A stretch of 64,000 nucleotides of DNA, taken from Draconibacterium sediminis (GTDB lineage Bacteria > Bacteroidota > Bacteroidia > Bacteroidales > Prolixibacteraceae). The stretch spans positions 62,001-126,000 of the forward strand of contig NZ_JRHC01000004.1 in NCBI RefSeq assembly GCF_000949475.1, in the 5' to 3' direction. The notes under the pieces were generated by a model. It was given only the letters and a program-made list of their open reading frames with translations. It was not told where the DNA came from and did no database searches. The position numbers were made by a program, and so were the translations under genes. This document shows positions 50,903 through 60,820 of the stretch, piece by piece (position 1 is the stretch's first letter; the number at the start of each line of letters is the position of its first letter).

Positions 50903-52513
50903 ATGATCAGAGAATTTCAATTGTTTATTGCCTTTTTAGTGTTGGGAACGGCAGTTCTCTCATGTGCACCCTCTAAGAGTGAGGAATCTTCGCAGCCTCC
51001 CAATATTATCTACATCATGAGCGATGACCATGCTTATCAGGCTATTAGTGCTTATGGGTATGGATTAAATGAAACACCAAACATTGACCGACTAGCCAAG
51101 GAAGGGGCCATTTTTACCAGGGCATGTGTTACCAACTCAATCTGTGCTCCGAGCCGTGCGGTATTGCTTACAGGCAAACACAGTTTTATAAATGGAAAAG
51201 TGGACAATGTTCAGCCTTTTAACTGGGATCAGCCTAATTTCCCAAAATTGCTTCAGGCAAACGGCTACCAAACAGCCATGATAGGGAAAATCCATTTGGA
51301 CGGAATTCCGCAGGGATTTGATTTTTCAATGGTACTTCCCGGGCAGGGCAATTACTACAATCCTGATTTTTTGATTGACGGCGAAAGGGTACGAAAAGAA
51401 GGTTACTGTACCGATATTATTACGGAAACCACACTCGACTGGTTAAAAAATAAACGTGATCCCAATAAACCTTTCTGTGTACTTTACCACCAGAAAGCAC
51501 CTCATCGCAACTGGAAATCAGCTCCGGAATACCTTAATTTATATGATGACGTAACATTCGATCCTCCATCAAATTATTTCGATGATTACAGTGGCATGGG
51601 GACAGCTGCCAAAGAGCAGGAAATGCAAATTGACGGACATGCTGGCTGGGGACACGATTTTAAAATGATTGTTGATCCGAATGGAGACAGTACCCGTTTT
51701 CATCGTGAACTGGCACGATTCAACGAAAAGCAGTTAGAGGATTGGCTAGCGGCTTATACTCCAAAGAATGAGGCTTTTAAAGCGGAGTATCCAAATATGA
51801 CTAAAAAAGAAATTGCCCTTTGGAAATATAACCGCTACATCAAAGATTATTTACGTACCATCAAATCGGTGGACGACGGAGTGGGAGAAGTACTCGACTA
51901 TCTTGAAGAATCCGGACTGGCAGAAAACACCATCGTAATTTATACCTCTGACCAGGGATTTTACCTTGGTGAGCATGGCTGGTTTGATAAACGTTTTATG
52001 TACGAAGAATCTTTCCGCACACCACTTTTGGTGCGTTACCCCAAAGAAATTGAAGCAGGAACGAAGATTGAAAAACTGGTACAAAATCTCGATTTTGCAC
52101 CAACCATTCTTGACTATGCCGGCGTTGAGGCTCCTGATGAGATGCAGGGAGAATCTTTCCGCAAGCTGGTAAGTGGTCAAACAGGTGAGTGGCGAGATGC
52201 TGTTTACTACACTTACTACGAATATCCATCGGTACATATGGTAAAACGGCATTACGGAGTGGCCACAGATCGTTACAAACTCATGCACTTTTATTACGAT
52301 ATTGATGAATGGGAAATGTACGATTTGAAAACGGATCCGAATGAAATGCACAATATTTACAATAACCCGGAGTATGCCGAGGTTCAGCAAGATCTTCATA
52401 AAAGGCTCGAAGAATTGCGCGTTTATTATGGCGACAGCGATGAGTTGAACCAAGAATACCTAAAAGCATATCTCGACCATCAGGAACAACGAAGAAACCG
52501 CAACAATAATTAA
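50903..52513 (+). CDS. S1-family sulfatase, GlcNAc-6-sulfatase-like, lipoprotein
   Basis: The 536-residue lipoprotein (Cys21, AVLSC) is a formylglycine sulfatase. The modified residue is C81 in SICAPSRAVLLTG (C-x-P-S-R). Metal ligands are the Asp pair in YIMSDDHAYQ and DQGFYLGEHGWFDKR near residue 350. The HQKAPHRNW and FDDYSGMG segments recall the S1_11 subfamily, which includes N-acetylglucosamine-6-O-sulfatases; the subfamily is a judgement from similarity. The enzyme needs an anaerobic maturase that is not in the window. It lies 5 bases from the next sulfatase gene. Confidence 0.88.
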   Translation: MIREFQLFIAFLVLGTAVLSCAPSKSEESSQPPNIIYIMSDDHAYQAISAYGYGLNETPNIDRLAKEGAIFTRACVTNSICAPSRAVLLTGKHSFINGKVDNVQPFNWDQPNFPKLLQANGYQTAMIGKIHLDGIPQGFDFSMVLPGQGNYYNPDFLIDGERVRKEGYCTDIITETTLDWLKNKRDPNKPFCVLYHQKAPHRNWKSAPEYLNLYDDVTFDPPSNYFDDYSGMGTAAKEQEMQIDGHAGWGHDFKMIVDPNGDSTRFHRELARFNEKQLEDWLAAYTPKNEAFKAEYPNMTKKEIALWKYNRYIKDYLRTIKSVDDGVGEVLDYLEESGLAENTIVIYTSDQGFYLGEHGWFDKRFMYEESFRTPLLVRYPKEIEAGTKIEKLVQNLDFAPTILDYAGVEAPDEMQGESFRKLVSGQTGEWRDAVYYTYYEYPSVHMVKRHYGVATDRYKLMHFYYDIDEWEMYDLKTDPNEMHNIYNNPEYAEVQQDLHKRLEELRVYYGDSDELNQEYLKAYLDHQEQRRNRNNN

Positions 52514-52518
52514 AGACA

Positions 52519-54042
52519 ATGACCTTATTTAATCTAAACCAGTTATATCAAAAAGGGAATACCTCGTTTTCGAGGTATTTCTTTTTACTACTATTGATTT
52601 TGGCTCCAATGTTTATAAATGCTCAGCCCAATATCCTACTGATTTTTTCAGATGATTTAAACACAAGGATTGGTCCGTATTTGGGGATTGATGAGCACAC
52701 GCCAAATCTCGACAGGCTGGCAAAAGAAGGAGTGATGTTCACTCGTGCCTATTGCCAGTATCCTCTTTGCGGACCTTCGCGGGCTTCAATTATGAGTGGT
52801 TTGTATCCGGCTACCAATGGTGTTTTGGGTAATGATGACACTCCCGGGAGTTATAAAGAAATCAATCCGGCACTAAAAGATCATCCTTCAATGGCTGGTT
52901 TCTTCAGGGAACAAGGCTATTTTACTGCACGTGTTTCAAAGATATTTCATATGGGTGTGCCTGGCGGAATTGAACGTGGTGAACCCGGAGGAGACGAGCC
53001 CGAATCCTGGGACTACGCCTTTAATGTTATGGGGCCCGAAACGCTCAGTCCCGGAGAGTTGGAATTACTTTCACCCAAAAACCTACATTACGGATCAAAT
53101 TTTGCACGTTTGATATTACCGGATTCCCTGCAATACTATCAAACCGATTATATTGCCGCGAATCAGGCAATTGCGATCCTTGAAAGTCGTGCAAAAGCGG
53201 TTGCAGAAGGAGCTACAAACAAGGTAAAGATAAAACCTGATGCACCATTTTTCCTGGCTGTAGGATTTGTGAGACCGCATGTCCCTTTGATTTCTACTGA
53301 AAGCTGTTTTGCAAATTATCCCGACGAAGAGAGTGTCCTTCCATCGGTTGAAGTTGGGGATAATGTTCCAAAAGAGGCGCTGGTACGACAAAATGACAAA
53401 ATCTGGGGAATGGACGAACTTCAAAAGAAGAAAACCATAAGTGCTTACATGGCTAGTGTTAAGTTTATGGACGAACAGATCGGGCGGCTTTTAAATACAA
53501 TGGATCAGCTGGATTTGCGTAAAAATACCATTGTCGTTTTTCTCTCCGACCATGGATACAACCTGGGAGAACATGATTGCTGGGCAAAAACCAGTTTGTG
53601 GGAAGGAACCGTAAGGGTGCCACTCGTTATTTCAGTTCCTGGAATGGAAAAAACGTATGGAGTAAAATGTGAATCGATAGCCGAGTTGATCGATTTGTAT
53701 CCAACACTGGTTGAATTGGGGGGTTATGCTGATGAAACCCCGGAAATTCTGCAGGGAGAAAGTCTTGTTAAATACATTGAAACAGAGAATCTGGTTGATA
53801 ATGATGCCGAAGCATTCACAATTACCAACAGGGGAAATGCAGGTACATTGGTTTTTGGTAAGTACAGGTATACGCGTTGGGGAGAGGATATCAATAGCGG
53901 TAACGAAGAATTATACAACCATGAATCAGATCCTGAAGAACTTGAAAATTTAGTAGGACACCCGGATCAGAATAAACTCATAGAAGAAATGCGGAAACGC
54001 TTTAATTTAGCAAAGAAACGGTCACTAAAATCAATACAATAA
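52519..54042 (+). CDS. S1-family sulfatase, iduronate-2-sulfatase-like
   Basis: The 507-residue secreted sulfatase has a formylglycine site at C84 in YPLCGPSRASIMSG. Metal ligands are in LLIFSDDLNTRIG and FLSDHGYNLGEHDCW. It resembles iduronate-2-sulfatase-type S1_7 enzymes (GPYLGIDEHTPNLDRLAKEG, AVGFVRPHVPL). The signal peptide runs over about residues 18-36 and ends INAQ. Codons 14-23 form a perfect terminator-like hairpin (52558-52579), so translation could start downstream of it at an internal TTG. Hydrolysed sulfate ester is not identified. No GH or lyase accompanies the two sulfatases. Confidence 0.87.
   Translation: MTLFNLNQLYQKGNTSFSRYFFLLLLILAPMFINAQPNILLIFSDDLNTRIGPYLGIDEHTPNLDRLAKEGVMFTRAYCQYPLCGPSRASIMSGLYPATNGVLGNDDTPGSYKEINPALKDHPSMAGFFREQGYFTARVSKIFHMGVPGGIERGEPGGDEPESWDYAFNVMGPETLSPGELELLSPKNLHYGSNFARLILPDSLQYYQTDYIAANQAIAILESRAKAVAEGATNKVKIKPDAPFFLAVGFVRPHVPLISTESCFANYPDEESVLPSVEVGDNVPKEALVRQNDKIWGMDELQKKKTISAYMASVKFMDEQIGRLLNTMDQLDLRKNTIVVFLSDHGYNLGEHDCWAKTSLWEGTVRVPLVISVPGMEKTYGVKCESIAELIDLYPTLVELGGYADETPEILQGESLVKYIETENLVDNDAEAFTITNRGNAGTLVFGKYRYTRWGEDINSGNEELYNHESDPEELENLVGHPDQNKLIEEMRKRFNLAKKRSLKSIQ
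52557..52586 (+). terminator. Perfect terminator hairpin inside the second sulfatase's leader codons
   Basis: AATACCTCG pairs with CGAGGTATT around TTTT, and TTTCTTTTT follows. It has all marks of an intrinsic terminator but lies 39-68 bases after the sulfatase start codon, in frame with the signal-peptide codons. Confidence 0.75.
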
Positions 54043-54152: not shown

Positions 54153-54190
54153 AAAAAACACTCGTTATCATTGATAACGAGTGTTTTTTT
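54153..54190. terminator. Bidirectional terminator after the sulfatases
   Basis: AAAAAACACTCGTTATC pairs perfectly with GATAACGAGTGTTTTTT around ATT; T runs on both strands. It closes PUL 4 and ends 3 bases before the left repeat of the integrated element. Confidence 0.9.
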
Positions 54191-54193
54191 ATA

Positions 54194-54206
54194 GTGGGCC
54201 CACCTG
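54194..54206. repeat. Left attachment-site repeat
   Basis: GTGGGCCCACCTG matches the tRNA 3' end exactly over 13 bases and then diverges. It starts 4 bases after the sulfatase terminator. Confidence 0.85.
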
Positions 54207-54543
54207 TCCTCCATAATAGTCAAATAGGAACTGTATATCAGTATGATATAAATTCAAATGGAACCCAAAGGGATCTTTCTGTTCCCCAAAAGAGTTCCAC
54301 TTCAATACTGAGGGTTCCACATATCGTAGATATGATTCTGTAATTAAACTTAACATTTTTCATCAAATTCTTTACGTTTCCACATTTCTCTAATATTTAT
54401 ATGTAGATGTTGGAAATTCCACCAACACGTTCCTATGAGAGTAGGTAAAAGGTATAATAATACATATCGGATACTAAAAGTAAAGATTCAATCCCTACTT
54501 ATTATCTATCGTATGTTTAATTACTAATACTAACTAATATAAT
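54207..54543. other. Left-end noncoding region of the element
   Basis: No gene of note. The stretch holds GGAACCC (54260-54266), GTTCCCC (54281-54287), GTTCC (54294-54298) and GGGTTCC (54312-54318), which resemble arm-type recombinase sites. It also holds an inverted repeat TGTTGG-8-CCAACA (54408-54427). Confidence 0.45.
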
Positions 54544-54945
54544 ATGAATAGAATAGGTGTTCTCATAAGAAAATGGAATTATGGTACCAATGGGAGGAAA
54601 CATAATCCATCACGTAAAAACCTGAATAAACAGATATTGACTTTACATAGAAAGTTAAAAAAGAAAGATAATGTTTATACTGAATATTCAATTGAAAAAG
54701 ATACGGATATAGATATCAATAGATACCACGTACACCTCATTATTCATTTCAACGATGAGAACCACCTGAATAATCGATTATCCAACTTCATCGGTGGTAC
54801 AGAATGGAAGATACGTACAAATAACAAAGGTTCATTCAATGAATGTAACGGTAAATATGGATTTGTACATACAGACAATCTGAGAGATGAATTGAAATAT
54901 AGAAACTACTTAAACAAATATGAATTGACAACAACACTTATATAA
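54544..54945 (+). CDS. Small HUH-like endonuclease candidate
   Basis: The 133-residue basic protein has an HVH at 62-64 flanked by hydrophobic residues (RYHVHLIIHF), the HUH metal site of rolling-circle Rep/relaxase enzymes. At 122-126 it has YLNKY, the Tyr-x-x-x-Tyr with an internal Lys seen in Rep proteins. The order and spacing of the two motifs fit a minimal single-domain HUH enzyme that nicks one DNA strand. It is the first gene of a rightward cluster of overlapping genes. I could not name a family, and a transposase of the IS200 type seems less likely because of the YxxxY. Confidence 0.5.
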   Translation: MNRIGVLIRKWNYGTNGRKHNPSRKNLNKQILTLHRKLKKKDNVYTEYSIEKDTDIDINRYHVHLIIHFNDENHLNNRLSNFIGGTEWKIRTNNKGSFNECNGKYGFVHTDNLRDELKYRNYLNKYELTTTLI

Positions 54946-55113
54946 ATGAAAACAGGAAAAATTACAGTACTAGATTATCAAGAAGAAACGGGGAAGTTTA
55001 ATGATATCATATTTCGTTCACAAGATGGAACGACAGAATTATCATTTGAAGAATGGTTTAATGAATTAGAAATAGATTTTATAATCCATAGAGGAAGAAT
55101 AAATGAAGAATAA
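54946..55113 (+). CDS. Small hypothetical protein, 55 residues
   Basis: It starts at the base after the stop of the HUH-like gene and overlaps the next gene by 11 bases. The acidic product begins MKTGKITVLDYQEETGKF and has a LSFEEWFNELEIDFIIHRG end. No family is recognised. The tight spacing argues that it is real. Confidence 0.55.
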   Translation: MKTGKITVLDYQEETGKFNDIIFRSQDGTTELSFEEWFNELEIDFIIHRGRINEE

Positions 55114-55312
55114 AGAGTTTACTGAGTTCATCAATGGACTTACACCACGAGAACGAACAGATTACATAAAATCACTCTCAGATGGTTTATTAGAGTACAC
55201 TACAGAGATTGACAAACACAGAGAATACTTAGAAAATTTACCAACGAAAGAATTAAGAATTAAAGAAATTGAAAGAATTGTAAATGAATACACTAAAAGA
55301 ACGAATCAGTAA
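55103..55312 (+). CDS. Small hypothetical protein, 69 residues
   Basis: It is a charged, probably all-helical protein (EFINGLTPRERTDYIKSLSD, IKEIERIVNEYTKRTNQ). It overlaps the gene before by 11 bases and the HTH gene after by 29 bases. No domain is recognised; the helical make-up would suit a DNA- or partner-binding protein. Confidence 0.5.
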   Translation: MKNKEFTEFINGLTPRERTDYIKSLSDGLLEYTTEIDKHREYLENLPTKELRIKEIERIVNEYTKRTNQ

Positions 55313-55478
55313 AAAAGAGTTGATGAAGATGTACAACGTGGACAGGTCCACAATCGAATCTTGGATTAAAGAAAGAGGACTACCAATGATTGAAATTTCA
55401 TCTCATAAAAAGTACGTCAGACGAGAAGATTTAATCGAGTTTGAAAACAAGATGATGAAGAACAAAATTGAATTATGA
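55284..55478 (+). CDS. Excisionase-like HTH protein (MerR/HTH_17 fold)
   Basis: The 64-residue protein is a single winged-helix unit: KKELMKMYNVDRSTIESWI, then a wing (GLPMIEISSHKKYVRREDLIEF). This fits the HTH_17/Xis family of Bacteroidota excisionases and element regulators. With a tyrosine integrase at the other end of the element, a role in directing excision is likely. It overlaps both neighbours (ATGA junction with the next). Confidence 0.7.
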   Translation: MNTLKERISKKELMKMYNVDRSTIESWIKERGLPMIEISSHKKYVRREDLIEFENKMMKNKIEL

Positions 55479-55639
55479 AATCCGATAGAATCACTAAGAT
55501 TCAAAATATCATTTCTGAATTGGATGTCTTAATTTCAGAGTTAAAAGAGAAAGGAGATGAAGTAAGTGTTCAACGTTGTTCAGAAGTAAGGTCTGGATAT
55601 ATCAATGATTTGAAGAAAATGAATATCACAGATTATTAA
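55475..55639 (+). CDS. Small hypothetical protein, 54 residues
   Basis: It starts in the ATGA stop overlap of the HTH gene and encodes a helical, coiled-coil-like protein (TKIQNIISELDVLISELKEK, ending KKMNITDY). No family is recognised. The ATGA junction supports translation. Confidence 0.5.
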   Translation: MKSDRITKIQNIISELDVLISELKEKGDEVSVQRCSEVRSGYINDLKKMNITDY

Positions 55640-55701
55640 TAGTTCAATTCTACCAATCTGTCAGAACTCAAAAATGATATTTCAATCAATTGAAAATTAA
55701 A

Positions 55702-55872
55702 CTATTCCAATGTGTCAAAATTCGTACTTCCAAACTCATCATTGAGTTCAAAATACTCCATTAATCCCACAACACGTTCATCCTCCGGATTTGAAGAAGT
55801 TTTCTCACTCATCCTCTTATACCATAAATCTCTATCCCTATTCTTGATTTTATGAGAATTAGTAGATTTCAT
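55702..55872 (-). CDS. Small hypothetical protein after the serine recombinase, 56 residues
   Basis: The ATG overlaps the recombinase stop in ATGA, so it is translationally coupled to it. The product (MKSTNSHKIKNRDRDLWYKR, then an acidic part with ERVVGLMEYFELNDEFG) has no known family. It could be a recombinase-associated accessory factor. Confidence 0.5.
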   Translation of the reverse strand: MKSTNSHKIKNRDRDLWYKRMSEKTSSNPEDERVVGLMEYFELNDEFGSTNFDTLE

Positions 55873-56489
55873 ATTTCTATATTTTGAGGTTTATAATATT
55901 GTTTAACCTTATAAATGGTAGAAGTTGAAACACCCAAACGAAAGGAAATATCCCTCGTGGATTTACCCATCTTCAGATACTTGATAATGGATTGGGATTT
56001 TGGTTTATTTAGGAATGTTTGGATATTTTCATTAGTTCCTTTTTTCCTACCTAATTTACCTCCATTCATCACAAACATTTTTCTTCCCATTTGAGTTCGT
56101 TCAAGTATGTTTTCACGTTCCATCTCGTAAAGTGAACTCATAACACTTGTAATTAAATTCCAAATGGGATTCTTCTTCCCAGATACTTTGGATTGAAGAT
56201 TACCCATGTTACGAACCACTACGTTTACATCATGTTCATCAAGATATTGAAGTGTAGAAAGAACATCGATGGTATTCCTACCCAATTTTGACAAATCTTC
56301 ACAAACCAATTCTTTTACTTTACCTTGTTCAACGAGTTGAATTAGTTCTTTTCCTTTCTCTCTTTCAATGAATGGTATTTTACCACTCACTCCTTTATCA
56401 AACAAAATCAAATCGTAGTTACTCTTATCCAATTTGAATCTTTCACCACTCTGGTTAATCGTTGAAGTTCTTCGGTAGGATATTCTCAT
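55869..56489 (-). CDS. Serine recombinase (resolvase/invertase family)
   Basis: The frame is open to 56546, but the ATG at 56489 starts the conserved domain (MRISYRRTSTINQ) and gives 206 residues. The catalytic Ser9 is in RTSTxxQ and the fold continues with LVCEDLSKLGRNTIDVLSTL and SVMSSLYEMERENILERT. The C-terminal HTH has KSTRDISFRLGVSTSTIYKV. The normal Asp-Arg pair before LGR is Ser-Lys here, so the Arg matching R68 of gamma-delta resolvase is a Lys. It could resolve dimers or invert a segment of the element. Confidence 0.85.
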   Translation of the reverse strand: MRISYRRTSTINQSGERFKLDKSNYDLILFDKGVSGKIPFIEREKGKELIQLVEQGKVKELVCEDLSKLGRNTIDVLSTLQYLDEHDVNVVVRNMGNLQSKVSGKKNPIWNLITSVMSSLYEMERENILERTQMGRKMFVMNGGKLGRKKGTNENIQTFLNKPKSQSIIKYLKMGKSTRDISFRLGVSTSTIYKVKQYYKPQNIEI

Positions 56490-56736
56490 GAAGTGTATCG
56501 TTTTAATTCTCTTAATAAATCTACCAAAAAAACGGAAGACGTCCAAGTCTAAACGTTTGTTATTCTGTCTATTAATGTATCGTTTTTATTTATGAATAAT
56601 ATCGAAACAACTTCTGTAGATTTCAAATAATGTTCCCAAAATATTTGGAGATTCAAAATAGAGTATTCCGGTTTTATTGTTAAATTTATGAACCAAAAAT
56701 AACTAATGATAAACCGTTATTCTAAATACTAATTCT

Positions 56737-57375
56737 ATGAATTTAATTTTTGTGATTGTAATAGTTGTGGTGTTGTTAATTATAGGATTCAGAATCTTCG
56801 TTAAGAGGATGATGAAAGAATCACCATATTATCATACAAAAAGAATGTTGGAAAAGAAGTTAAGTTCATTAGATGATACTGATTGGAAAGGTAAACAAGA
56901 GGTTAATCTGAAATTGTGTTGGATAAATTCTCTGAAATCATACCATATGAGTGTTACTCATGGTGATAATAAGGAAGAAACTGTAAGGTATACCTTAAAC
57001 AATCTAACAGAAGATGATATAGAATTCCCAGAAGAACTAGATTTGGAAGATTTCTCTCACTTTGATTTCACTTATAAGATTGGACAGGATTTTAAAAAAG
57101 TAATTGATGAGTGTGGATATGAATTAATGAAACCATATTACATATTACCTTATCCATTTGATTACATTGATAAATCGTTTGGATTCTTAATTAGATTTTT
57201 CAAAAATGATAATGAAATCTTTTCTTCAAAAGAGAAAGAAATTTATCTAGATGATCTAGATAGAGTATCAAGTAATCTGACGTTTTTCGTAGATACTGGA
57301 AGTGATGATATTTCAAAAGATGGAAATACAAGTATAAAAGATAGTAGAAAATATAAATCGTGGATGAATGAATAG
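56737..57375 (+). CDS. Membrane-anchored protein, partner of AbiH
   Basis: The 212-residue protein has one N-terminal membrane segment (about 2-20: LIFVIVIVVVLLIIGF) followed by basic residues, so the rest is probably cytosolic. The remainder is an acidic alpha/beta domain (DDTDWKGKQEVNLKLCW, LPYPFDYIDKSFGFLIRFF) with no recognised family. Its end overlaps the AbiH gene by 8 bases, so both are expressed together. It may place AbiH at the membrane or act as a sensor or toxin-regulating partner; this is inference. Confidence 0.6.
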   Translation: MNLIFVIVIVVVLLIIGFRIFVKRMMKESPYYHTKRMLEKKLSSLDDTDWKGKQEVNLKLCWINSLKSYHMSVTHGDNKEETVRYTLNNLTEDDIEFPEELDLEDFSHFDFTYKIGQDFKKVIDECGYELMKPYYILPYPFDYIDKSFGFLIRFFKNDNEIFSSKEKEIYLDDLDRVSSNLTFFVDTGSDDISKDGNTSIKDSRKYKSWMNE

Positions 57376-58471
57376 ATTAATAATTATTGGGAATGGATTT
57401 GATTTATCACACGGTATCCAATCAAGACTCGTTGATTACCTTAACTACTATAAAAAACAATTTCTCAAGGTTTTTGTGGAGAAACATGAATCAAATCCTC
57501 ACAAATTAACATCTGGAACGGTTCATAGTGATTCTCTGATCACTTTTAAATATATAACAAACGATCAATCGATTTTAGAACATTTAATAGAGGTTTCAAC
57601 GTTCTCTGAATTTATTCGAATTTCTCAGAAAGAAAGGTTGATCGAAATTAAATCAATTCTTTTAAATCAGTATATAAGAAAAGTTGATGGGGGAGATAAT
57701 TGGGTTGATATAGAATCATTATACTTTAAAACGTTGTTTAATTATACCAAGAATGTTAATTCAGATAGGAATAACATAAAACGATTTAATGAACAGTTTG
57801 AGTTTATTAAAAATGGTTTTATTGAATATCTAAAACATCAATTGGTGGAGTTTAAAGATAATGTTGGTACTCAGGAATTTGAAAATTTTGTTCATGATTA
57901 CCAAAAAATATTTCATCAAGATTTTAATTTAAAACATGATTTCCGTTTAATGTATCTAAACTTCAATTATTCTGATATATTAAGAACTCATATTCAGTAT
58001 CATGATGATTATGTAAATAGAAAAATAAACTATATTCATGGTGAAATTGATGATGTTAAAAATCCAGTAGTAATGGGGTTTGGTGATGAACACGATGAAA
58101 AATTTAAAACATGGGATTCAAATGAAAATCATGAATTATTTCGAAATATAAAATCAATCAATTATTTTAAAACTACTAAATATCAAGAGTTAAATAGTTT
58201 TTTGAATTCAGGTAGTTCATTTGAAGTTTATGTACTCGGTCACTCTTGTGGATTATCTGATAGAACACTTTTACGTGAAATATTTGAACATCAAAAATGT
58301 AACCGTATAAAACTATTTTACTACGAAGATTCCCAAGGGAATTCAGATTTTTTTGAAAAATCAGTGGAGGTTATGAGACATTTTGAGAACAAAAACCTTG
58401 TTCGTAAACGTGTTGTTTTTAATGAAAATAACAAGATGTTACAATTGTCAGAATATTTGAACAAACAATAG
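57368..58471 (+). CDS. AbiH-family abortive infection protein
   Basis: The 367-residue cytosolic protein has the family signatures of phage abortive infection protein AbiH (PF14253): LIIIGNGFDLSHG at the start (4-16, a nucleotide-fold-like loop), NWVDIE at 111-116, LNFNYSDIL near 198-205, YIHGEIDD (223-229), NPVVMGFGDEHDE and VYVLGHSCGLSDRTLLREI (288-304). AbiH blocks phage development by an unknown mechanism. It is encoded within the integrated element, and the partner gene overlaps its start. It has no enzyme activity assigned. Confidence 0.8.
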   Translation: MNRLIIIGNGFDLSHGIQSRLVDYLNYYKKQFLKVFVEKHESNPHKLTSGTVHSDSLITFKYITNDQSILEHLIEVSTFSEFIRISQKERLIEIKSILLNQYIRKVDGGDNWVDIESLYFKTLFNYTKNVNSDRNNIKRFNEQFEFIKNGFIEYLKHQLVEFKDNVGTQEFENFVHDYQKIFHQDFNLKHDFRLMYLNFNYSDILRTHIQYHDDYVNRKINYIHGEIDDVKNPVVMGFGDEHDEKFKTWDSNENHELFRNIKSINYFKTTKYQELNSFLNSGSSFEVYVLGHSCGLSDRTLLREIFEHQKCNRIKLFYYEDSQGNSDFFEKSVEVMRHFENKNLVRKRVVFNENNKMLQLSEYLNKQ

Positions 58472-58502
58472 TTTTTAAAATAAAACTGATGAACGATTTG
58501 AA

Positions 58503-58775
58503 TTATATCTGTTTTAGAATAAATTCATCGTTTTTATAGTTTACCTCAACTATATTAGATTCAAATATCTGACCTAGATAAATATATCCACTATCTATCA
58601 ATAGTTTACCCATTTCAGAAACATGTATTATTGTTTCGGAATTAATTAATGGTTTACCATCTACATAAGAAGTTATAGTAGTTTTATATCCAAACTCAAA
58701 TTTCCAAATTTTACTATTCTTATCTAACCACTTATGTGTAACTAAGTATCTACCCTTTTTCTGATTTTCTGTCAT
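58503..58775 (-). CDS. Small hypothetical protein, 90 residues
   Basis: It is a mainly beta protein (GRYLVTHKWLDKNSKIWKFE, TIIHVSEMGKLLIDSGYIYL) without a known family. A TATCTTTG promoter element lies on its own strand 27 bases before the start. It faces the AbiH gene end to end, with 31 bases between, and is the only gene between the cargo and the integrase. Confidence 0.5.
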   Translation of the reverse strand: MTENQKKGRYLVTHKWLDKNSKIWKFEFGYKTTITSYVDGKPLINSETIIHVSEMGKLLIDSGYIYLGQIFESNIVEVNYKNDEFILKQI

Positions 58776-58801
58776 TTTTTCAAATTTATTTTAACATAAC
58801 A

Positions 58802-58809
58802 CAAAGATA
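58802..58809 (-). promoter_or_regulatory. -7-like element of the 90-residue gene
   Basis: TATCTTTG on the minus strand fits TAnnTTTG; a TTTT about 20 bases upstream replaces the usual TTTG. Confidence 0.35.
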
Positions 58810-58977
58810 CTCATAAAAAAAGTGGGAGTAAAAAAAGGGTATTGTGGTGGGTTAATGTATTGGTAAGTAGTGGTTTTGTAGGTTTCTTGTAACTGTGAAA
58901 GAACTTTTTCCTCAAATCCCTAAATAGGTGGGTTTTATATCGGGAGTGACTTTTTAGTGAGGGGATTTATAGATTGG

Positions 58978-60606
58978 TTATAAACCCATCAACTGTCTTA
59001 CCTTTTCAGTATAAATTTCATCAGGTAAAACACCTTTCTCATTTAATTGTTGGAGTGTTTTAAGTTGTTCCTCCGTTTCGGGGGATGTGATATTTACCTC
59101 TTTAGTTTTCTTTGGTTTATTCTCTTTGTTGTTGTATTTCTTCTTTAAGTTGTCCGAGAATAAATCATCATTCACTTTCATGATATCCTTATCCAAAACA
59201 TTGTAATACCCATCAAATACTTTCTGAGAACTATGTCCTGTCATTTTCATGATGGTTCTGATAGGAGTTCCTTTCTCAATGTGTTCACGAATAAATGTTC
59301 TTCTTCCGATATGAGATACCATAACGTTATGAAGTGGGACGATATCATTAGTACGTTCAACTATTTTACCAGTCAAATCAAACTCAGGTAACTTAACAGG
59401 TCGGTTCAGTTCCAAAATCTCTCCCAAATGTTTGGTGTGTTTGTTGAATTTCTGATTACTGAATGGATTACCGAAATTTGTTCTTGGGAACAGATAATGA
59501 TGACTATTCTTGTCGTGTGAATACTTCCTAAAAATCCTATCCGTCATTTGGTTAATCTTAACCTTAACTTCGGTTCTTTTTCTACTTTTTTCCATGTAGA
59601 AACGAAAATATCCGGTTCTATTACCTTTGATTCCGGTATCATCAAATACAAAATCACCGACTTTCATCTTAACCATATCACCGAATCTACATCCAACGTT
59701 ACAAAGGAAGATTAACATGTCCCTATATACTTCATAGGTGGTGAATGTTCTTGAAATTTCTTTCTCTCTGTTATTGGTGAATTTTTCCTCAATGTAGAAC
59801 AGACATTTATGTTTAGTTAAGAGTTCAACATGTTTAGGATTACCAATCTCAATGTCGTTGAAATAGAAGATTTTAAGAACTTCTTCTCGTTTCAGGAATA
59901 TTACCTCTCTTTCTCCATCAGGTGTGAATGAAGATGGTTTTTTTATCCTAAAATCAGTTCCATGATTGTCTTTACACCAATTAGAGAAGTTTACCAATGT
60001 TTTAACCCTTTTTTTAATGGTTATGGGTTGTAGTCCTTTCTTGTAACTCCATTTGATTAATCCCATAACCCATTCCTCTGTCAAATCACTTGGGAGAAGA
60101 TATACCTTGTTTTTCAACTGATAATCCAATGTGTATGTTTTGATATCCTTAATTGATGGATTTATCGTTTTTACGTAGGATTTTCTGTTGGGGAATAAAT
60201 CCGAATTTATCCACTTCTCGTACAATTCAAATAAGGTAAGGAAATGAACTTCTTTCAATGATTCTCTTACTTTCGTAACGTTCATCTCTCGTAAGTGAGA
60301 TTTTACCAAATCAATAGATGGAACTTTGTCCTCTTTTTCAAGTTGGAATACTAAGTTGTTTACCTCTGAGAGTTTTTGTTTTATTTGAATGTTTTTCTCT
60401 TTTGATAATTCATCCGTATTCTTAATTGGGTTTTTAGTTTGACGAGTTTTCCAATCATCATCCCAATCCTTAATCATACATGAAATACCCGTTGGAATTT
60501 TCAGTTTCCTTTTATCGTAGTAGTAAACCACCACCACCGAAACTGAATCGTTTTTTGAGTAACTACTTTTACTTTTCTTGTAATCCAACTTACATATTAG
60601 TCCCAT
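58978..60606 (-). CDS. Tyrosine recombinase (integrase) of the element
   Basis: The 542-residue integrase has an N-terminal arm-binding domain (about 1-115), a core-binding domain (about 120-225) and a catalytic domain (about 235-480). The active residues are R307 in GCRFGDM, H432 and R435 in SHIGRRTF, H458 in TGHSSQ, and Y467/Y468 in DGYYNV. The C-terminal ~65 residues are Lys-rich. The gene lies with its 5' end toward the tRNA target, the usual layout for integrases using a tRNA att site. A noncoding stretch of ~200 bases follows. Confidence 0.93.
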   Translation of the reverse strand: MGLICKLDYKKSKSSYSKNDSVSVVVVYYYDKRKLKIPTGISCMIKDWDDDWKTRQTKNPIKNTDELSKEKNIQIKQKLSEVNNLVFQLEKEDKVPSIDLVKSHLREMNVTKVRESLKEVHFLTLFELYEKWINSDLFPNRKSYVKTINPSIKDIKTYTLDYQLKNKVYLLPSDLTEEWVMGLIKWSYKKGLQPITIKKRVKTLVNFSNWCKDNHGTDFRIKKPSSFTPDGEREVIFLKREEVLKIFYFNDIEIGNPKHVELLTKHKCLFYIEEKFTNNREKEISRTFTTYEVYRDMLIFLCNVGCRFGDMVKMKVGDFVFDDTGIKGNRTGYFRFYMEKSRKRTEVKVKINQMTDRIFRKYSHDKNSHHYLFPRTNFGNPFSNQKFNKHTKHLGEILELNRPVKLPEFDLTGKIVERTNDIVPLHNVMVSHIGRRTFIREHIEKGTPIRTIMKMTGHSSQKVFDGYYNVLDKDIMKVNDDLFSDNLKKKYNNKENKPKKTKEVNITSPETEEQLKTLQQLNEKGVLPDEIYTEKVRQLMGL

Positions 60607-60653
60607 CTTTCTGTATTTAAGTCAGTTAAATGTATTGAAAAATATTGAAGAAT

Positions 60654-60673
60654 GGAACCCTAAATGGAACCCC
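60654..60673 (+). repeat. GGAACCC repeats at the right end of the element
   Basis: GGAACCC (60654-60660) and GGAACCCC (60666-60673) lie between the integrase start and the tRNA, 12 bases apart. The same hexamer occurs at the left end in both orientations. They look like arm-type integrase or Xis sites. Confidence 0.45.
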
Positions 60674-60739
60674 AGAGTGATTTTTGGGAATAAAAAAATC
60701 CCAACTAATTGATAAACAATCTGTTGAGATTTGATGTTC

Positions 60740-60820
<81 letters not shown>

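Follow-up and report, generated by a model that had tools for sequence, protein, structure and literature searches.

AbiH-family candidate defence effector and an overlapping membrane-protein gene carried by a small tRNA-Met-integrated element of Draconibacterium sediminis

Introduction

Does the AbiH gene carried by a small mobile element of Draconibacterium sediminis work alone, or together with the membrane-protein gene that overlaps its start? Both genes lie in a stretch of 64,000 nucleotides (nt) of contig NZ_JRHC01000004.1 (the window, meaning the whole stretch analysed), and the upstream gene is referred to as the partner. AbiH of Lactococcus lactis reportedly goes back to Prevots (1996). 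There is good support for the window AbiH as a candidate defence effector carried by a mobile element. Its partner is real and co-translated here, but it is rare and is not conserved alongside AbiH. A SIR2-type AbiH effector, read as an enzyme, and a locally functional pairing with the membrane partner, taken together, are given a probability of about one half. AbiH is described as a single gene in reviews (PMC11084316), whereas the window AbiH overlaps a membrane-protein gene. Its mechanism is given as unknown in a 2025 paper (PMC12322248).

The AbiH gene overlaps an upstream membrane-protein gene on a mobile element

The partner gene (56737-57375, + strand) encodes a protein of 212 amino acids (aa) in which a single N-terminal membrane helix is followed by an acidic soluble part. 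The AbiH gene (57368-58471, + strand) encodes 367 aa. Both open reading frames (ORFs) were placed exactly as the first-pass annotation had claimed, and the 8-nt overlap was confirmed. The common bases are ATGAATAG, and the AbiH start ATGAATAGA supplies the TAG stop codon of the upstream gene, an overlap that indicates co-translation of the two proteins. The guanine plus cytosine (G+C) fraction is 0.26-0.28 in the partner, AbiH and a 90-aa ORF of no family found (58503-58775, - strand), 0.30-0.33 in the remaining genes of the element, and 0.42 and 0.44 in the genes flanking it. Judged by this base composition, the partner and AbiH resemble a block of cargo.

The element spans 54194-60752 (6.5 kb) and is integrated at the 3′ end of a tRNA-Met gene. 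Its left 13-bp attachment-site repeat, GTGGGCCCACCTG (54194-54206), is an exact direct repeat of the right one (60740-60752), and this right copy forms the 3′ terminus of the tRNA-Met gene (60740-60814, - strand); the mobile-element setting proposed earlier was thus borne out. Same-genus homology restarts at, or at most 9 bases from, position 60740 in 18 of the 19 foreign loci compared, and exactly there in 14 of them (split pieces counted for two). The relatives gave no more than short or weak matches on the left flank, and the empty site is therefore demonstrated for the right side alone.

The AbiH protein has a predicted SIR2-type fold

The 367-aa protein matched Pfam AbiH (PF14253) with an expect value (E) of 5.1e-28 and 99.3 bits, compared with a curated cut-off of 30.9, covering positions 1-258 of the 260 in the profile. 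All AbiH signatures noted in the first pass were recovered (GNGFDLSHG at residues 8-16, NWVDIE at 111-116, YIHGEIDD at 222-229 and VLGHSCGLSD at 289-298), and the conserved residues GNGFD, NY, HG and GHSxGxSD of the family are present. Conservation was judged on the 120 listed of 3874 homologues; N200 and H224, the candidate catalytic Asn and His, are invariant in all 120 and intact here. Neither the PADLOC nor the NCBIfam models call the protein AbiH. Membership of the AbiH family and the cargo setting are both firm.

The AlphaFold2 model of AbiH was confident (predicted local distance difference test score, pLDDT, 85.9). Its Foldseek fold matches were SIR2 NADases, with SIR2-HerA as the best, and a Rossmann fold of sirtuin type was recognised in the model, with a helical insert at about residues 97-183, before the N200 motif. 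A SIR2-type fold is a strong prediction from the model. Because a confident model matches SIR2 NADases, destruction of NAD+ (nicotinamide adenine dinucleotide) is the likeliest action of the protein, and the 2012 prediction (PMC3506569) becomes testable.

The partner protein is real and rare

As the first-pass annotation had it, the upstream protein has one N-terminal membrane helix and an acidic domain of no known family. Its single hydrophobic stretch starts at residue 4 (19-residue Kyte-Doolittle mean 3.3), and the soluble part, from residue 28, has an isoelectric point of 4.77. Pfam gave sub-cut-off matches only, DUF4083 over the membrane segment (residues 5-42, E 5e-4, 20.3 of 25.4 bits) and RH1 (E 0.086). 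No NCBIfam or PADLOC match was found, and one PHROG matched at E 0.083.

Among about 5.8 billion proteins, two close homologues of the partner were found outside the window (P0002 and P0003), compared with 3874 of AbiH. They are 72% and 67% identical to it, aligned over residues 1-208 and 1-212, respectively; since both align from residue 1, the partner is a real gene. P0003 equals the window partner in length and shares its last eight residues. It retains the WMNE ending, as the overlapping bases would impose, which favours linkage to AbiH. The contig comparison speaks against such linkage. The listed contigs of P0002 (950 nt) and P0003 (7,567 nt) have no equal in size among those of the nearest AbiH proteins, P0005-P0008, and no 7,567-nt contig occurs among the 120 AbiH homologues listed; the listing gives the longest contig only for each protein (P0005, with 88,309 nt given, has two), and short contigs may simply not reach a neighbouring AbiH gene.

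A second protein search with the partner profile gave no further homologues. In a profile search of 140 genomes of the window's family, one further real homologue was detected in genome G504 (E 1.6e-27; L188, 1501-2448). It has 315 aa, is 30% identical to the window partner over the shared part, and extends about 110 residues beyond the point where the window partner ends. Samples drawn more widely, from the order (393 and 208 genomes), the phylum (395) and the class (203), returned only the window's gene and two chance-level matches. G431, G158 and G134 gave weak matches (E about 1e-3 each) in frames that by eye appeared to be unrelated proteins; these agree with chance for the number of genomes searched and were set aside. 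The partner was not found in viral contigs, genome contigs, plasmids, phages or solved structures, the genome-contig and viral scans using short exact peptide patterns that reach only close relatives. The G504 homologue was not found in plasmids either. It lies between three near-identical copies of a unit of a 457-aa transposase-like and a 234-aa recombinase-like gene (L190, 923-12396), and GTTRRRY sites, sought as a sign of integron cassettes around it, were no more frequent than chance.

Membrane-protein genes recur upstream of AbiH

Neighbourhoods of AbiH were surveyed at 141 loci (L002-L014, L016-L115 and L160-L187). After repeats, ORFs below 150 aa and AbiH genes at locus edges had been dropped, 116 AbiH with a readable upstream gene were left, and an upstream gene was called tight when it was co-directional and within 30 nt. 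A homologue of the partner was looked for beside these AbiH and was found only at the window's own locus, so a conserved pair of AbiH and this membrane gene is not supported in the loci surveyed. This outcome largely matches the finding that the first-pass annotation had named as refuting its two-component proposal.

Membrane-protein genes of other kinds were found beside AbiH. Of the genes upstream of the 116 AbiH, 34 were tight, 9 of them (window included) having a membrane segment and 25 having none; 51 were loose and 31 divergent. For the other genes in the same loci (n=573) the counts in this order were 22, 186, 217 and 148. The share of tight membrane genes, 9/116 versus 22/573, gave a one-sided p of 0.060, which rises to 0.11 when the window is left out. 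A smaller set compiled earlier had given 9/102 versus 23/568 (two-sided p 0.045), and among its tight upstream genes alone, window included, membrane genes were commoner beside AbiH (9/31 versus 23/211, p 0.010). The nine cases are scattered over the AbiH tree without clustering (9 changes, shuffled mean 8.8). In this tree the window AbiH and P0005-P0008 (51-54% identity) form a supported group of five. Membrane neighbours of AbiH thus recur, are not clearly commoner than beside other genes, and follow no rule shown here.

Thirty of the 34 tight upstream genes were scanned with Pfam (all except L085, L094, L164 and L167). Restriction-modification, Abi or TIR/SEFIR families accounted for 14, some of them at loci that are near relatives of each other: putAbiC (L017, L022, L032), Abi_alpha (L106), MmeI (L026, L040), DNA methylase (L063, L075), Methylase_S (L067), type I R subunit (L071, L072, L092, L168) and TIR/SEFIR (L064). 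Two had a dCMP deaminase domain (L037, L039), five belonged to other families (L024, L030, L050, L100, L166), and nine had no match over cut-off (the window, L016, L036, L038, L068, L074, L102, L111, L178). This suggests that AbiH is an effector appended downstream of genes of varied kinds, many of them defence genes.

Several single loci are worth recording. In Flavobacterium lacisediminis (L016, 5343-7053) a 221-aa gene overlaps AbiH by 8 nt as in the window; it matched neither the partner profile nor any Pfam or NCBIfam model over cut-off. In two Flavobacterium species (L037, 3995-7131; L039, 4139-7089) the gene ending 2 nt ahead of AbiH encodes a large protein with a dCMP deaminase domain. 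In three gut Bacteroidota loci a related gene of 148-149 aa, with a probable N-terminal membrane helix, stands 15 nt before AbiH (L068, 5186-6784; L074, 4747-6357; L094, 5536-7137). At L008, L012 and L057 a genome has two consecutive AbiH genes, and stop codons interrupt the second.

Possible roles of the membrane partner

In the favoured explanation, AbiH, carried as cargo by the small tRNA-Met-integrated element, would be a cytosolic SIR2-fold enzyme, presumably triggered by phage infection, which would then most likely destroy NAD+ and halt phage growth at the cell's cost. The partner would be anchored in the inner membrane by its one helix, with the acidic part probably in the cytosol. It would be translated first and, with its stop codon inside the AbiH start, both proteins would most likely be made together. 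Through a putative interaction it would most likely tether, sense for or restrain AbiH, as an optional local addition in this element and not a standard AbiH component. If the membrane partner controls AbiH, this would be a new way to regulate a SIR2-type effector.

Known systems offer partial parallels. SIR2-HerA (Nezha, Gao19), the closest solved fold to the AbiH model, is a two-gene system like the window pair; its partner is the HerA ATPase, whereas here it is a single-helix membrane protein of no known family. In a homologue, Gao19-ST109, the SIR2 protein itself has an N-terminal membrane segment (PMC12322248). The SIR2 NADase effectors DSR2, ThsA and KomC carry or pair with known sensors, unlike the window AbiH, and they also differ from it in that its model has the helical insert. 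A further parallel is the putAbiC-AbiH pair of three Sphingobacterium species (L017, 4763-7203; L022, 4673-7212; L032, 4637-7230), in which, as in the window, a membrane gene lies directly upstream of AbiH, in this case with a 1- or 4-nt overlap. putAbiC (PF16872) has several membrane helices and does not match the partner profile. The term putAbiC brought up no paper in the literature collection searched. The putAbiC-AbiH pair is by itself a candidate two-gene unit.

Several results weigh against an NADase with a dedicated membrane partner. Foldseek superpositions were poor overall (template modelling score 0.31-0.41 for 11 matches, root mean square deviation 11.9-16.9 Å). Alignment of AbiH by hhalign to six SIR2 fragments from related genomes, with small profiles, gave a probability of 0.4%, no better than reversed controls, and AbiH matched no PDB sequence below E 0.2. 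The partner model was of low confidence (pLDDT 61.5), too weak for a fold search. Over the survey loci the partner profile matched, besides the window gene, one frame at chance level (E 0.026). Moreover, no AbiH was found in G504 with a profile that detected it in 22 of 395 class genomes. Given AbiH without the partner elsewhere, the two genes are separable in both directions. The two-component module proposed in the first-pass annotation is therefore weakly supported: the overlap, the common unusual base composition and the excess of membrane genes among tight neighbours in the earlier set speak for it, and the presence of the partner beside 1 of 116 AbiH speaks against it. The pairing is real in this element, but as no other surveyed AbiH showed it, it does not yet amount to a new two-part immune system.

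The same data bear on whether AbiH is self-sufficient, the membrane gene being either a passenger unrelated to it or a distinct gene for defence or exclusion on the same transcript. This alternative is rated nearly as probable as the functional pairing. It fits the 82 of 116 AbiH that lack a tight upstream gene, the varied defence families in 14 of the 30 scanned tight neighbours, the equal overlap in L016 with a gene not matched by the partner profile, the G504 homologue, and the single-gene description of AbiH noted above. It sits less well with the co-translation implied by the overlap and with the WMNE ending kept in P0003. A toxin-antitoxin pair, in which the membrane protein is an antidote holding AbiH inactive until infection, would suit the gene order (possible antidote first), the overlap and the acidic partner. 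The chance of this is slim, as AbiH occurs elsewhere without the partner gene and a distant partner homologue without AbiH found, and AbiH is described as acting alone in two papers (PMC12322248, PMC11084316). Slimmer still is the chance that AbiH serves another nucleotide-linked process, or is inactive here; the failure of PADLOC models to recognise it would agree with this, whereas the family and fold matches, the intact conserved residues and the mobile-element setting oppose it. A functional pairing of SIR2-type AbiH with its partner might also take a more specific form, in which the partner would serve as a sensor or scaffold, modular and anchored in the membrane. Its homologue in G504 has a C-terminal tail of its own, whereas the window's reading frame stops at the start codon of AbiH, as though the tail had been traded for a SIR2-type effector in trans. 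We consider this unlikely; if true, the pair would be a membrane-localised, translation-coupled NADase immune system.

Other features of the element and its flank

The tyrosine integrase (58978-60606, - strand, 542 aa) matched Pfam Phage_integrase at E 1.7e-12. A search for related integrases with the same cargo slot returned distant integrases only (best foreign identity 32%, partial coverage). A 64-aa helix-turn-helix, excisionase-like protein (55284-55478, + strand) matched HTH_17 over cut-off (E 1.6e-7) and the excisionase family phrog_66 (E 3.9e-6). A 133-aa ORF (54544-54945, + strand) is tentatively replication-protein-like (Pfam REP_ORF2-G2P, E 0.0052, 17.5 bits, under the cut-off of 27.8). 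The serine recombinase (55869-56546, - strand) matched Pfam Resolvase (E 5.2e-19) and the DNA invertase family phrog_125 (E 7e-31). Promoter inversion by this recombinase was considered and set aside, because no convincing inverted repeat lay near the promoter region (the best had 22 nt at 82%); a promoter scan found fewer sites than in shuffled sequences. On the left, the element adjoins two ORFs that by eye appear sulfatase-like (50903-54042); a perfect 18-bp inverted repeat (54153-54189) closes this pair.
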